Shown here one piece after another: positions 30,998 through 36,094 of a stretch of DNA of 64,000 bases (its first letter is position 1; the number at the start of each line of letters is the position of its first letter). The translations under genes were made by a program, and so were the position numbers. Origin of the DNA: Pseudohongiella sp. O18 (GTDB lineage Bacteria > Pseudomonadota > Gammaproteobacteria > Pseudomonadales > Pseudohongiellaceae); contig NZ_JAJSAR010000001.1 in the NCBI RefSeq assembly GCF_021729085.1, forward strand, positions 1,302,001 to 1,366,000, read 5' to 3'. The notes under the pieces are model-generated. The model searched no databases, was not told the origin of the DNA, and saw only the letters and a list, made by a program, of their open reading frames with translations.

Positions 30998-31951
30998 TTG
31001 GTTGTTAGGGTGGCCAGTTTGACCGACCATAAAATGCAGAACCTTCCCATTCTTCTAGCCGCATTCGAGCAAGTAAGGCTGCTTGAGCGTACTTTCGGCG
31101 ATGACATTCCATGGTCAGCCATTATTCAAGGGTTCGAATTTAACGGTCGCAAAGTACTGATGGCGAACAGAGCACGAGGAATATTTAAGCCCAAAGAAAT
31201 GCAAGACGGGCTGCTAAGTATCAAAACTACAGAGCCCAGGGCAGGCAGAACGAATATTTATGATGACCAAGAAATGTCGGAGGGGTTTTTCCGTTACTCC
31301 CTTCAGAGAGGTGATTCACGAAGTGGTGGAAATAAGTGCTTATGGGAAGCCAAGCAGCAGCGACAGCCATTCATCTATTTTCATGCTGTGGCGCCCGGAA
31401 GATACAAAGCGATATGGCCATGTTATATCTCTAATATTCACGAATCAGAACGCTATTGCGAAGTAGTAGTTGGGGAGCCTCTAGATATTTCGCGCGATCA
31501 ATCGAGGGGCGTGGTATATCCTGACTTAAGCGCACCTGCCAGGTCATACGCAATAAGAGAAACGCGGGTCCGACTGCATCAAGCCACGTTTAGAGTAAAT
31601 GTATTAACTGCCTACAATAATAAGTGTTCATTGTCAGGGCTCCCAATCCGAGAGTTACTCGAAGCGGCGCATATTACACCAGATTCTGAGACGCACAGCT
31701 CTACAGAAGTATCAAATGGTATTGCGATGTCGCGCCTTCATCACAAGGCGTATGATGCTAATTTGATTGGCATATCGCCCGATATGGAAATCACTGTAAG
31801 CGACATACTGTTGAGCCAGCAGGACGGAGCAATACTCACCGCACTTCAAGAATTGAACGGCAAACAGCTAGTGCCGCCTGGCAATAAACATCATTTGCCT
31901 GATAGAGATCGTCTTGCTCAAAGATACGAACAGTTCATAAAGACTAATTAG
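30998..31951 (+). CDS. HNH endonuclease, restriction-like
   Basis: 317 residues at most. The C-terminal HNH_2 domain (about 205-265) reads RVNVLTAYNNKCSLSGLP, LLEAAHITP and NGIAMSRLHHKAYDANLIGI, with the AAH and N..LHxxxD metal/catalytic pattern of solitary HNH restriction endonucleases. The N-terminal 190 residues (YFHAVAPGRYKAIWPCYI) resemble the target-recognition part of such proteins. The start is uncertain: TTG 30998, GTG 31010, TTG 31019 (AGGG at 8 bases) or ATG 31034 are possible. No partner methylase adjoins. Base composition is poorer in GC than the neighbours, suggesting transfer. Confidence 0.82.
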   Translation: MVVRVASLTDHKMQNLPILLAAFEQVRLLERTFGDDIPWSAIIQGFEFNGRKVLMANRARGIFKPKEMQDGLLSIKTTEPRAGRTNIYDDQEMSEGFFRYSLQRGDSRSGGNKCLWEAKQQRQPFIYFHAVAPGRYKAIWPCYISNIHESERYCEVVVGEPLDISRDQSRGVVYPDLSAPARSYAIRETRVRLHQATFRVNVLTAYNNKCSLSGLPIRELLEAAHITPDSETHSSTEVSNGIAMSRLHHKAYDANLIGISPDMEITVSDILLSQQDGAILTALQELNGKQLVPPGNKHHLPDRDRLAQRYEQFIKTN

Positions 31952-32080: not shown

Positions 32081-32527
32081 GTGCGACCGATTGACGAACA
32101 TCCACGTACAAAGCAATATGAATTGATGAATAATAAACTAGACACTAATCTGTGCCCCTTTTGCGACCATAGTAGCCGCAAGCCTCTAGTCGCTAACAGC
32201 ACAGGGGGCGCGATTCTAGACAATTACCCGATTTCACCGGGGCATACATTGATCATTCCCGTACGACATGTCGCCTCATACTTCGATCTGTCTCAAGACG
32301 AACGCGATGACCTGTGGGACCTTGTCGAACAGGCCAAGGCAATACTAGACAAGACGTTTTCGCCGGATAGCTACAATGTCGGCTTCAATGACGGGCCTGC
32401 CGCCGGCCAAACCATTGGGCACTGCCACATTCACCTGATCCCACGTTATGTTGGCGACGTGGCTGATCCGAGAGGTGGTTTGCGCTGGATTATGCCGCAC
32501 AAAGCTGACTATTGGTCTGATAAATGA
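32081..32527 (+). CDS. HIT family nucleotide hydrolase/transferase
   Basis: 148 residues from the GTG at 32081, or 133 from the ATG at 32126; no ribosome site decides. The histidine-triad motif is intact: GHCHIHLIPR (HxHxHxx), preceded by the purine-binding PISPGHTLIIPVRHVASYFDL and an N-terminal CPFC pair. HIT enzymes split or transfer nucleoside phosphates (Fhit, HINT-like). Its TGA overlaps the ATG of the HNH gene (ATGA), so the two are translated together, linking a nucleotide-acting enzyme to a nuclease. This suggests a defence or stress role (inference). Confidence 0.85.
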   Translation: MRPIDEHPRTKQYELMNNKLDTNLCPFCDHSSRKPLVANSTGGAILDNYPISPGHTLIIPVRHVASYFDLSQDERDDLWDLVEQAKAILDKTFSPDSYNVGFNDGPAAGQTIGHCHIHLIPRYVGDVADPRGGLRWIMPHKADYWSDK

Positions 32528-33624
32528 GCACTTTATCTGCACGCGCGCAGCTGGCGTTTCTTGAGAAGATCCAACGCCTATTTGACGAGGGCGAGTTTTC
32601 GGCCACATACAAATTCGCCCTGATGCTGACGCTGACAGAGCTGGCAATTGAGTATGGTGCGGATGATGACACCGAGTTGGCATTGCCACTCGATCTGGTG
32701 GCGGAGCGTTTTGCGCTTTGGTACTGGCGGCAGGCAAGCGCTTATGGCCCGGCGTCTGCTGACTCTGAAGACGGTATTCTTGTTCAGAATCTCGGCAAAC
32801 AGGCGGCTGTGATAAATCGAATACGCGGTGTTTACAATGATGTACAAGGCAATCCTGCCCGCGCCCCCGGCCATCCACATTGGAAGCGTGTAATTTCAGA
32901 CATCCGGGCTATCGTCCACAACATGCCGTTACGCCATCTACAGGTAATTGGTGGCGAGACAGATCGATTTCTCTATGATTATCCGTGTGTGAACAAAATA
33001 TTGGTTCTCAAGCGGGGTATCAGTCATAACCTTCGACGTTTCAGTCCTCTTATTCAGCAACTGGCAAAGGCAGGTTGGCTTGAACACATTCGCAGTAATC
33101 GCCGCAATTCTGAGCTACTTGGGAAAAAGGACGATCTCGAGTCATTTATGTTCGGGACGCCAAGAGCTCAGCTGGCAAAGGTTTCGCCAATTCTGGCCGA
33201 CATGCAGGACAGACGTTGCTTCTACTGTCAGGGAAAGTTGCACAGCCAGGTTGAGGTTGACCACTTCATCCCGTGGTCTCGCTACCCAAGGGATACTGCC
33301 CACAACTTCGTTGTGGCGCATCGAAGCTGTAATAACGACAAACGCGATATGTTGGCGGCCAAATCGCACCTGGAACGCTGGCTGGATAGGAACGAACGCA
33401 TCGGCCGAGAGCTGGGGGAACAAATGCAAGACCAGGGCTTCGTCTCGAATTTGGCCAGCACGACTGAAGTGGCGAAATGGGCATATGGTGAAACACTCAG
33501 GATGCAGGGTTATGCCTGGATCGCAACACGTCGTCAGACTGAAATGATAAATGAGCAGTACACTGCGCTTTTTTCAATAAATCAGTCTGTTAGCAGCCGA
33601 ACAAACACCCCAACCACCCGATAG
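32524..33624 (+). CDS. HNH endonuclease coupled to HIT protein
   Basis: 366 residues. A long helical N-terminal part (1-225; ALMLTLTELAIEYGADDD, LRHLQVIGGETDRFLYDYP) precedes a canonical HNH (about 235-280): RRCFYCQGKL, EVDHFIPWSRYPRDTAHNFVVAHRSCNNDKRD, with two CxxC-like zinc pairs and the His-Asn-His core. It begins in an ATGA overlap with the HIT gene. Its last 14 codons overlap the 3-prime end of the convergent helicase fusion by 43 bases, and the tail (SSRTNTPTTR) looks like read-through into that gene, so the C-terminus may have been replaced by a recombination joint. Confidence 0.85.
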   Translation: MSTLSARAQLAFLEKIQRLFDEGEFSATYKFALMLTLTELAIEYGADDDTELALPLDLVAERFALWYWRQASAYGPASADSEDGILVQNLGKQAAVINRIRGVYNDVQGNPARAPGHPHWKRVISDIRAIVHNMPLRHLQVIGGETDRFLYDYPCVNKILVLKRGISHNLRRFSPLIQQLAKAGWLEHIRSNRRNSELLGKKDDLESFMFGTPRAQLAKVSPILADMQDRRCFYCQGKLHSQVEVDHFIPWSRYPRDTAHNFVVAHRSCNNDKRDMLAAKSHLERWLDRNERIGRELGEQMQDQGFVSNLASTTEVAKWAYGETLRMQGYAWIATRRQTEMINEQYTALFSINQSVSSRTNTPTTR

Positions 33625-35777
33625 CTCTCAACCTCATCCGCACCCAAAACAATCGGCTCATACCCAGTATTACTGGATCGCGGTTTCAACATGATCTGCT
33701 CATGCGCCCAGCCATCGTCGCTTTCACTTTTCACGCTGGCGTATTCTTTAATCGTATAGTGTGAACCGCTTTCTTCATCAATACTGTTCAGCATTTCGAC
33801 CAGCACGATCTTGCCATTGCGGCTGCCGCCGGGGTCGGTGCGGAACAGGCACATGGCGCCGTTGGGGATGATGTTGTTCATCGACTCGCCCTGGACCTTG
33901 CAGGCAAAGTAACTTTCGTTGATGCGCTCGCCTTCGGGAACCAGAGTCCAGTCTTTGTGCTCTCCACGCTGCTGTTCGCTGAAGTCTCCGGCGGCTGCTA
34001 TCAGGTCATATACTGGCACGGCATTGATAAACGGTTTGACAGGTATCGGAACGATATCTGCTGTGCCATCAAATGACTGCGATTCCGTCGCGATGTGCTG
34101 AGCGAGATAGTCCCGGAGGTCGGGATCGCATGCATAGATGAACGTACCGCGTATGCCACGCAGCAGAATGGTCTGGTAGATGTTTAATATATATATTTTA
34201 AGTTCTTCGGGATTCTTGATCGACTGTTTTCCGTTCCTGTCGAAGTAAAGCTCGGGCCGTATGATGATTTCATTGCTGACTTTGTCGTAGCCAATTTCGC
34301 GGCCGAAAATGACTCCAGCAATGTTGAGGTCGTAGCCCTGTGTTGTGTGGATGCAGCCAACTTCATTTACTGAGTTAGGTGCGTTGATCCAGTCTTTGCT
34401 GGTGCTGTTCCATCTCAGCTGAACGCCCTCAATCTGAATATCGAAAAGTTCACTGTTTTTATTGGAGACCCATGGCCATGCGTATCCTGCAATCATCCGC
34501 GACAGCCCATGCTGATCGTCGCGTTCTCTGACGGCGTTAACGAATTCGGCGAAGGAGTCGAACAATCTGAGTTCGTAGTTTTTTGACTGGTAGGGCGGTG
34601 CATTTCCCAGTCGACCATGCAGCAGTCTATTGATGAACTGAACGTAGGGGTTGCCGCCTCTGACACGGAACTGGGACACCAGTTGCTGAGTCTGGGTCGT
34701 TGGCGATAGTTTGAGTTTTTCAAAAACGCCGGTCGGTGTGTCAGAGGGCTTGATGGTCTGGTTCAGGTCGTAGAAAAACACGGCCTTGTTCGACTGCTTG
34801 GTTACCCAGTCCACCTCGCTGCAGTTCGCTGGATCCAGGCCAAGCGTGTTTGCGGTTTTGTCGAACGAGCCGTAATAGGCGCCCAGGTTTTGTCTGCGGC
34901 GCAGACGGTGTGCTTCATCGACAAGGACAATGTCGTATTGCTGTTCCGCAAGTTGTGAGGGGCTGATCACCATTTTCCGCGACAGGCCCGCAACATTGGC
35001 GAAGGCTTTTTCAACGGTGGCGCGAAACGAGGCCATCGGCACTACCAGGGCCATTTTGGGTCTGGGGCCAAACCTGTCTCGCAACTGCGACAGCAGATTC
35101 CTGAATTCATCCTCATCGGAGGAAAGACTGCTGAACCGGAAGTCGTCCAGATCGCTTTGCAGCAACTTGAACAGAAATATCGCCAGCACGGATTTGCCGG
35201 TGCCGGCGCCACCCTCGACGATCAGGGATTTCACCTGATCATCCAGAAGGGCGTACATGATGCCCAGCAATCCCTGGCGCTGGTCTGCTGACAGCGTTTT
35301 GTACGGTGAGTATTTGAACAGGTCGGAGTTGTCGAGATGCTCAATGGAATGTTGAGCCAGGCCTTCTGCTCTCAACTTGTCCCAGAGGTGTCTGAACATT
35401 CCCGAATAAAGCTGTTCTTTCTGGTAGTAATTGTGATCGACCAGCCCAAGGTTGCCATTGAGCAGTGCGAACTTGCCATCGGCTGCCATGTACTTGATGA
35501 GATTCGATTCGATATCCAGTGTGGCAGACTTGTTAAACTTGTCGCTCTGAATCAGGTGAACGATGGTCAGTCTGCTTTTTTCGTTGTGCTTGAGGTGGGC
35601 CTCCATCCGGGTGACAGTGTCGGCAGTCTCGCCGACGTAGGCACGTCCTTTAATGGCATTGCTCAGCACATAAACAAGTGGCCAGTGACCCTGAGTGAGC
35701 CCGTTCGCTCGAATCTGCTCCAGTGAACTCCTCTGGAAAGCAAAGCGCCTGATCTCAAGATCGTGAGCTCCGCTCAT
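33582..35777 (-). CDS. GIY-YIG nuclease / SF1 helicase (DUF2075) / LexA-like S24 autoprotease fusion
   Basis: 731 residues. GIY-YIG domain 32-110 with Tyr36, AYVGE (47-50), Arg57 and Glu90. SF1 helicase of the DUF2075/Schlafen-like group 150-555: Walker A GGAGTGKS (189-196), DEAH (287-290), FFYDLNQT, SQFRVRGGN, HTTQGYDLN and LLRGIRGTFIY. C-terminal S24 domain 585-731: cleavage-site-like IAAAGDF (Ala596-Gly597), Ser632 in GESMNN and Lys677 in YTIKEY, with LexA-like spacing. It starts in an ATGA overlap with the MazG-like gene. Predicted DNA-acting enzyme whose activity or stability may be switched by RecA-stimulated self-cleavage (inference). Confidence 0.9.
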   Translation of the reverse strand: MSGAHDLEIRRFAFQRSSLEQIRANGLTQGHWPLVYVLSNAIKGRAYVGETADTVTRMEAHLKHNEKSRLTIVHLIQSDKFNKSATLDIESNLIKYMAADGKFALLNGNLGLVDHNYYQKEQLYSGMFRHLWDKLRAEGLAQHSIEHLDNSDLFKYSPYKTLSADQRQGLLGIMYALLDDQVKSLIVEGGAGTGKSVLAIFLFKLLQSDLDDFRFSSLSSDEDEFRNLLSQLRDRFGPRPKMALVVPMASFRATVEKAFANVAGLSRKMVISPSQLAEQQYDIVLVDEAHRLRRRQNLGAYYGSFDKTANTLGLDPANCSEVDWVTKQSNKAVFFYDLNQTIKPSDTPTGVFEKLKLSPTTQTQQLVSQFRVRGGNPYVQFINRLLHGRLGNAPPYQSKNYELRLFDSFAEFVNAVRERDDQHGLSRMIAGYAWPWVSNKNSELFDIQIEGVQLRWNSTSKDWINAPNSVNEVGCIHTTQGYDLNIAGVIFGREIGYDKVSNEIIIRPELYFDRNGKQSIKNPEELKIYILNIYQTILLRGIRGTFIYACDPDLRDYLAQHIATESQSFDGTADIVPIPVKPFINAVPVYDLIAAAGDFSEQQRGEHKDWTLVPEGERINESYFACKVQGESMNNIIPNGAMCLFRTDPGGSRNGKIVLVEMLNSIDEESGSHYTIKEYASVKSESDDGWAHEQIMLKPRSSNTGYEPIVLGADEVESYRVVGVFVRLLTD

Positions 35778-36094
35778 AGCTCATTGTATTTCCTGGCGGT
35801 GCCCCTGGCCTTGTCGGCGGGGTACTTTTCTTCATTCTGTTTGATTTTCGCCAGCACGATGTCTTTGACATCCAGGTCACAGGCATCGGCCAGCAGGAAG
35901 GCGAACGAGAACACATCGGCCAGCTCTTCCTTGATCTTTTCAGGATCGGCATCTTCCGGCTGTTTCCACAGGAAGGCTTCCAGCAGCTCGGCGGCTTCAA
36001 TGCTCAGCGCCAGTGACAGGTCTTTGGGGTTGTGAAACTGCTGCCAGTCGCGCTCGTCGCGGAATTTCTTCAGGGCGTCGATGATTTCGTTCAT
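35774..36094 (-). CDS. MazG-like nucleotide pyrophosphohydrolase
   Basis: 106 residues from the ATG at 36094 (an upstream ATG at 36160 lacks support). All-alpha NTP pyrophosphatase: SIEAAELLEAFLW carries the ExxxE motif and KEELADVFSFAFLLAD the ExxD motif that bind Mg ions. Hydrolyses non-canonical or dNTPs to NMP and PPi; relatives sit in housecleaning and phage-defence loci. It heads the minus-strand operon and overlaps the helicase fusion start by four bases (ATGA). A remnant of a second copy lies at 40905-40988. Confidence 0.92.
   Translation of the reverse strand: MNEIIDALKKFRDERDWQQFHNPKDLSLALSIEAAELLEAFLWKQPEDADPEKIKEELADVFSFAFLLADACDLDVKDIVLAKIKQNEEKYPADKARGTARKYNEL

Follow-up and report, generated by a model that had tools for sequence, protein, structure and literature searches.

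A predicted LexA-type self-cleavage tail on a GIY-YIG nuclease-helicase of Pseudohongiella and its MazG-like partner: a candidate switch in a proposed restriction-like unit

The 64,000-nucleotide stretch of Pseudohongiella sp. O18 analysed here (contig NZ_JAJSAR010000001.1, positions 1,302,001 to 1,366,000; hereafter the window, in whose own numbering positions are given) contains at 33582-35777, on the minus strand, an open reading frame with an ATG start encoding a protein of 731 amino acids. A GIY-YIG nuclease, a superfamily 1 (SF1) helicase of Schlafen group 3 and a LexA-like S24 domain follow one another in this protein. An earlier reading made from the letters alone (the sequence-only reading) had claimed that one protein joins these three domains. 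Pfam, alignment and the predicted fold bear this out, and the residue numbers it gave (Y36, G49, R57, E90, Walker A 189-196, DEAH 287-290, A596-G597, S632 and K677) are all correct. The present analysis adds the minus strand, a MazG-like partner gene, the presence of the same tail on at least four other scaffolds and the existence of relatives lacking S24.

The GIY-YIG domain covers residues ~30-115 (35433-35690; all features of the protein lie on the minus strand). Its Pfam match in the window protein remains below the cut-off (19.3 against 22.6, residues 34-70, E 1.4e-3); the corresponding domain of an S24-less relative, L128, exceeds it (27.4 against 22.6). The catalytic columns (Y36, Y47, G49, R57, H61, E90) are invariant in the alignment, and the catalytic set Tyr, Tyr, Gly, Arg, Glu is kept. 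G49, R57 and E90, together with K195, D287, E288 and H290 of the helicase, are identical in 89 of 89 aligned rows (duplicates included). Y36 is identical in 88 of these, and apart from one gapped row both Y36 and Y47 are invariant. The helicase (residues 185-551; 34125-35225) scores 201.8 bits with SLFN-g3_helicase (PF09848, formerly DUF2075), for which the cut-off is 24 (E 2.4e-59). Its Walker A motif GGAGTGKS (residues 189-196) and DEAH (287-290) are invariant columns among the relatives. An AlphaFold2 model of the whole protein, built with 58 aligned sequences, has a predicted local distance difference test score (pLDDT) of 83.9 and resembles RecD2, SLFN11 and Upf1 in a fold search. Between helicase and tail lies a variable linker (residues 561-584; 34026-34097), in which none of 24 columns is invariant and residues 568-576 are of low confidence (pLDDT <50). 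A chance fusion or frameshift artefact was considered and rejected: the layout is common to 80 relatives from the genome_contigs collection and eight from a survey of the order, the exceptions among these 88 being one split protein (L090) and two with a shorter called N-terminus (L083, L099).

Self-cleaving S24 domains are familiar from SOS repressors, phage repressors and UmuD. The S24 domain of the window protein occupies residues 585-731 (33585-34025) and matches Peptidase_S24 (PF00717) at residues 589-713 with 30.1 bits against a cut-off of 23.3 (E 4.3e-7). The predicted scissile bond is Ala596-Gly597 (33987-33992), the predicted nucleophile is Ser632 (33882-33884), 35 residues past Gly597, and the predicted general base is Lys677 (33747-33749), 45 residues past Ser632. 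The sequence-only reading had made its case depend on the joint conservation of these residues and on an S24 fold. None of the four residues varies across the 82 distinct rows spanning the tail (89 rows, including the window protein, minus six duplicate records and the split L090). In the same rows only 18 of 145 columns of the S24 domain are invariant. When a model of the S24 domain alone (pLDDT 84.5) was compared with the PDB, the first 19 matches were all LexA, lambda repressor or UmuD, and 13 of these reached E <= 0.001; chains from RecA-filament complexes (8gmu, 8trg, 8s7g, 8gmt) are among the matches. Loss of the dyad or of the cleavage site, or a fold other than S24, was thus not encountered among the proteins examined. 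Since the S24 profile reaches LexA just weakly by sequence (E 0.022), the tail is best described as a diverged S24 member. The C-terminus predicted to arise from the cut reads AAA or VAA in 79 of the 82 rows. The host genome encodes RecA as well as a LexA-type protein in which VAAG and GTSM occur. The Ala-Gly bond and the Ser-Lys pair are described as determinants of S24 self-cleavage in the accessible part of PMC8565304. Judged by sequence, the full LexA-type self-cleavage machinery is present and under strict constraint.

Directly upstream, at 35774-36094 on the minus strand, lies a gene for a MazG-like (DCTPP1-like) nucleotide pyrophosphohydrolase, which overlaps the nuclease-helicase gene by 4 bp. 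Its likely start is the ATG at 36094, as indicated by relatives; an open frame from a TTG extends to 36160. The product matches PF12643 with 68 bits against a cut-off of 27, and the general MazG family PF03819 below cut-off (19.7 against 22). The best PDB match is the archaeal-type 'pyrophosphatase' 4qgp (E 3.7e-20), and named relatives are dCTP pyrophosphatase 1 (E 2.3e-18) and its mouse form RS21-C6. The metal-binding ExxE...ExxD residues E55, E58, E79 and D82 are conserved throughout the alignment (92 of 92 rows, with duplicates counted). In all 80 distinct related loci having at least 320 bp of upstream sequence the MazG gene is found directly upstream on the same strand, with an overlap of 4 bp in 64 loci and of 1 bp in 10. 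No further conserved neighbour gene was found, the next cluster occurring in 7 of 82 loci. The nuclease-helicase is thus half of a two-gene unit with an obligate-looking MazG partner.

The scan of genome_contigs gave 321 relatives, and the best 80 by score, a choice favouring full-length proteins, were aligned. These 80 come from Gamma- and Betaproteobacteria, Bacteroidota and one metagenome-assembled genome of Neomarinimicrobiota. Selection bias was checked by genome surveys of the order and of the phylum, Bacteroidota not being surveyable without bias. In the order, 24 of 293 genomes had any match and nine the three-domain form; all nine matches covering the GIY-YIG end also cover S24. The three-domain system is present in two of six genomes searched in the own genus. 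Matches were sparse in the phylum (5 of 398 genomes); four span the nuclease-helicase and three of them carry S24, the fourth (G518) stopping 34 bases from the contig end. A phage or plasmid origin was considered and rejected: no relative occurs in viral_contigs, and none of the four phage and 39 plasmid records covers 80% of the query.

Three S24-less relatives, L126 (562 amino acids), L128 (580) and L130 (616), were obtained from plasmid and phage collections. The MazG gene lies upstream in L128 and L130 and was not found near L126. Since L128 and L130 lack the tail and still carry MazG, pairing with MazG extends beyond the tailed proteins; the tail itself looks to have been added later for regulation, or else to have been lost in the S24-less lines. 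In L128, from a Lactiplantibacillus plasmid (324-5719), a NUDIX gene with a SauUSI-like helicase is followed directly by MazG with the GIY-YIG-Schlafen helicase, giving two parallel pairs of deoxynucleoside triphosphate (dNTP) hydrolase and nuclease-helicase in a row.

The S24 profile matched 24 of 390 genomes of the order, once each, and always in open frames of at least 730 amino acids; with at most nine candidates scored per genome at E <= 1e-8, weak stand-alone relatives may have escaped this survey. The 24 proteins comprise 11 GIY-YIG-Schlafen proteins, 11 PD-(D/E)XK-Schlafen proteins, one HsdR and one DEAD/MZB helicase of 1981 amino acids, the PD-(D/E)XK label being a motif pattern recognised by eye (7 of 7 S24-bearing members) and not a Pfam assignment. 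The same tail is found in L073 on a SauUSI-like protein (PLD, ResIII, DUF3427); its gene has an overlap with a NUDIX gene, and 2.5 kb separate it from the GIY-YIG unit. A second S24 protein, of 843 amino acids, in L098 is similar to that of L073, a likeness noted without a Pfam scan. In both Bacteroidota loci (L073:6379-9747, L098:12016-14547) two different nuclease-helicases carrying the S24 tail thus stand side by side. In a tree of 33 S24 domains a very long branch leads to the host LexA. Five changes, the minimum possible, account for the six scaffold labels, and the HsdR and DEAD/MZB helicase lie near the PD-(D/E)XK group. As the second-protein tails of L073 and L098 form their own clade, the tail has probably been passed between scaffolds and not copied locally. 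By sequence, the tail is a module in its own right, carried by five nuclease-helicase scaffolds including GIY-YIG-Schlafen. The MazG gene adjoins five of seven PD-(D/E)XK-S24 loci and two of three S24-less Schlafen relatives (L036, L037, L040); the two PD-(D/E)XK-S24 loci without it, L032 and L033, share 98.6% identity. Because it is found across both groups, the MazG pairing tracks the helicase and not the tail. On a Halomonas plasmid (L127:3137-5607) the PD-(D/E)XK-type helicase and the S24 tail are on two overlapping frames; the frame shifts between them, either by a sequencing error or as a real split.

L038 encodes an HsdR (HSDR_N, ResIII and EcoEI_R_C by Pfam) beside HsdM and HsdS. In an alignment with three S24-less HsdR-type proteins its S24 domain is cleanly inserted into the nuclease domain, after the first helix-strand and just ahead of the catalytic ADYV...EAK stretch. 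Of these comparators L182 is short (378 amino acids, then a transposase), and L183 and L184 are full-sized and lie beside methylase and specificity genes. The Ala-Gly pair of the L038 protein is at residues 86-87, and as this is within the nuclease domain, cleavage would split that domain. Restriction alleviation is classically associated with type I enzymes, according to the accessible parts of PMC4231737 and PMC11109961.

Genes beside the related loci match defence models. At 15 loci, 134 neighbour proteins matched 139 PADLOC families at E <= 1e-10, and in a control 110 proteins matched 26 families; the families overlap, so that the figures are not protein counts and the control is a rough one. 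The families listed include models of MADS, Hachiman, Wadjet and Thoeris, which are matched much less in the control regions.

In the window, a HIT hydrolase gene overlaps an HNH endonuclease gene by 4 bp (32081-33624, plus strand); the pair is convergent with the nuclease-helicase gene, the 3' ends overlapping at 33582-33624. A fused HNH-HIT protein is encoded near the same GIY-YIG system in L070 (1651-2634), and a relative of the window HNH protein (34% identity) stands beside the PD-(D/E)XK-S24 gene in L032. HIT and HNH form a recurrent pair of nucleotide hydrolase and nuclease. Another HNH protein (30998-31951, plus strand) is akin to phosphorothioate-dependent restriction enzymes (NF045808, E 4.5e-16, below cut-off). 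Both this gene and the HIT-HNH pair are within 3 kb of the system.

The reading favoured here is a two-gene restriction-like defence unit with a RecA-sensed self-cleavage OFF switch, that is, with built-in restriction alleviation; we give it a probability of about 0.45. The GIY-YIG-helicase would move along DNA taken for foreign or wrongly modified and cut it, and the MazG partner would hydrolyse non-canonical, probably cytidine-type, dNTPs. RecA filaments would accumulate, including after breaks that the enzyme itself makes in the host chromosome, and the tail, acting as in LexA, would respond to them by a self-cut at Ala596-Gly597. The enzyme would then be turned off through the loss of tail-mediated dimers, through the exposure of a new C-terminus ending in Ala, or through both. 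Cleavage, RecA as the trigger, the OFF direction, the anti-phage role and the MazG substrate are what we infer here. By analogy, MazG may remove modified dCTPs by which host DNA would otherwise become marked, a role proposed because SauUSI cuts DNA with 5-methylcytosine and 5-hydroxymethylcytosine (accessible part of PMC3874153) and because the partner has dCTPase relatives; a role in dNTP depletion is equally open. For modification-dependent (type IV) restriction, the SauUSI-like relative and the likeness of the partner to dCTPases are the only hints.

The OFF direction is favoured over its opposite on several grounds. LexA and CI lose their function once separated from the S24 dimer. The AAA and VAA ends predicted for nearly all rows resemble the ssrA and LexA-fragment signals for ClpXP. 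In the L038 HsdR the cut would fall within the nuclease fold, and restriction alleviation through HsdR proteolysis is a known need (PMC4231737 and PMC11109961, as far as accessible). The opposite direction would be that of UmuD: the tail restrains the nuclease-helicase, and a RecA-stimulated cut frees an active nuclease, which stops phage replication or kills the cell. Several observations weigh against the OFF switch, and some of them fit an ON switch as well. The S24-less L126, L128 and L130 end soon after the helicase, so that the cut product would resemble a natural and presumably complete enzyme, and the cut would break no catalytic domain of the window protein. UmuD is itself a precedent and its structures are among the fold matches of the tail. 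The HsdR insertion is one case, and the -AA end may simply reflect the site preference of S24, a VAA|G site being present in the host LexA as well. No modification enzyme was found among the conserved neighbours of the related loci. No SOS box of the form CTGT-N8-ACAG occurs in the window or, at the 33 gamma/beta loci scanned, in the stretch between -250 and +120 relative to the MazG frame, Bacteroidota motifs being outside the scan; LexA-controlled expression was rejected on this ground. The accessible part of PMC11109961 states that restriction alleviation in Escherichia coli does not belong to the SOS functions, and this, together with the likeness of the cut product to the S24-less enzymes, is the reason why the ON switch is retained as a minority possibility. 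It is disfavoured by the position of the cut in L038, inside the nuclease domain, and by the consideration that a nuclease that the DNA damage of its own making switches on would escalate without end if nothing else limited it.

Two further explanations are considerably less probable. S24 domains dimerise, and in solved structures (the RecA-filament complexes listed above) they bind RecA filaments. The tail might therefore mainly dimerise the enzyme or tether it to RecA filaments, recruiting the nuclease-helicase to single-stranded DNA, with cleavage being secondary or setting turnover. Binding alone would not demand that Ala-Gly, Ser and Lys be invariant, and we consider this unlikely. Slightly less likely still is a role in DNA repair or nucleotide-pool hygiene, in which MazG cleans the pool and the nuclease-helicase, switched by RecA, removes damaged DNA. 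The DCTPP1-like partner and the RecA logic agree with it; the patchy presence in the order and in the own genus, the defence genes nearby and relatives such as the SauUSI-like enzyme and the HsdR of type I do not.

Beyond the window, the chances seem even that a dedicated LexA-type clade serves as a portable RecA-sensed self-cleavage switch, grafted on at least five unrelated restriction or defence nuclease-helicase scaffolds and giving damage-triggered alleviation or arming independent of LexA-controlled transcription. If so, an S24 clade on nuclease-helicases would join DNA-damage sensing straight to restriction, without a transcription step. This would suggest how a potent nuclease can spare its host while repair or replication leaves DNA vulnerable, which is an old problem. 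The occurrence of one tail on several unrelated DNA-cutting enzymes points to a safety switch that bacterial defence systems may reuse. The invariant MazG partner would be a second, testable layer, either of self-protection or of nucleotide attack, and the HsdR case allows ON and OFF to be told apart by direct tests in a classical type I system.

No description of the combination of GIY-YIG, Schlafen (DUF2075) and S24, or of its pairing with MazG, was found in the open-licence literature, a scope with subscription papers and preprints largely outside it; the accessible parts of PMC12839542 and PMC7159879 mention neither S24 nor GIY-YIG. The window protein matches no full PADLOC system. Its weak partial matches, to Nhi (39.4 bits), AbiO (36 bits) and PDC-S14 (26.1 bits), concern the helicase or GIY-YIG parts alone, and none has the three-domain architecture in the matched span. 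SauUSI is likewise a single-chain nuclease plus helicase, as far as the accessible part of PMC3874153 describes it, there without S24; it has PLD and a superfamily 2 helicase where the window protein has GIY-YIG and an SF1 Schlafen-type helicase, and the window protein lacks DUF3427. The L. plantarum plasmid locus L128 and the faecal scaffold L130 share the gene order MazG plus GIY-YIG-SLFN-g3 helicase, at 27-36% identity for the three S24-less relatives, and differ in lacking the tail. The L038 HsdR carries a domain of the same S24 clade with site and dyad kept; it differs in its position, within the N-terminal nuclease domain, and in the HsdM and HsdS genes of its locus. The tail is like LexA, UmuD and lambda CI in its fold, in the Ala-Gly bond, in the Ser-Lys dyad and in the ~35 residues from the site to Ser. 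Unlike them, it has a Ser-to-Lys spacing of 45, belongs to a separate clade far from the host LexA, and is joined to a nuclease-helicase instead of a DNA-binding repressor or a polymerase subunit.

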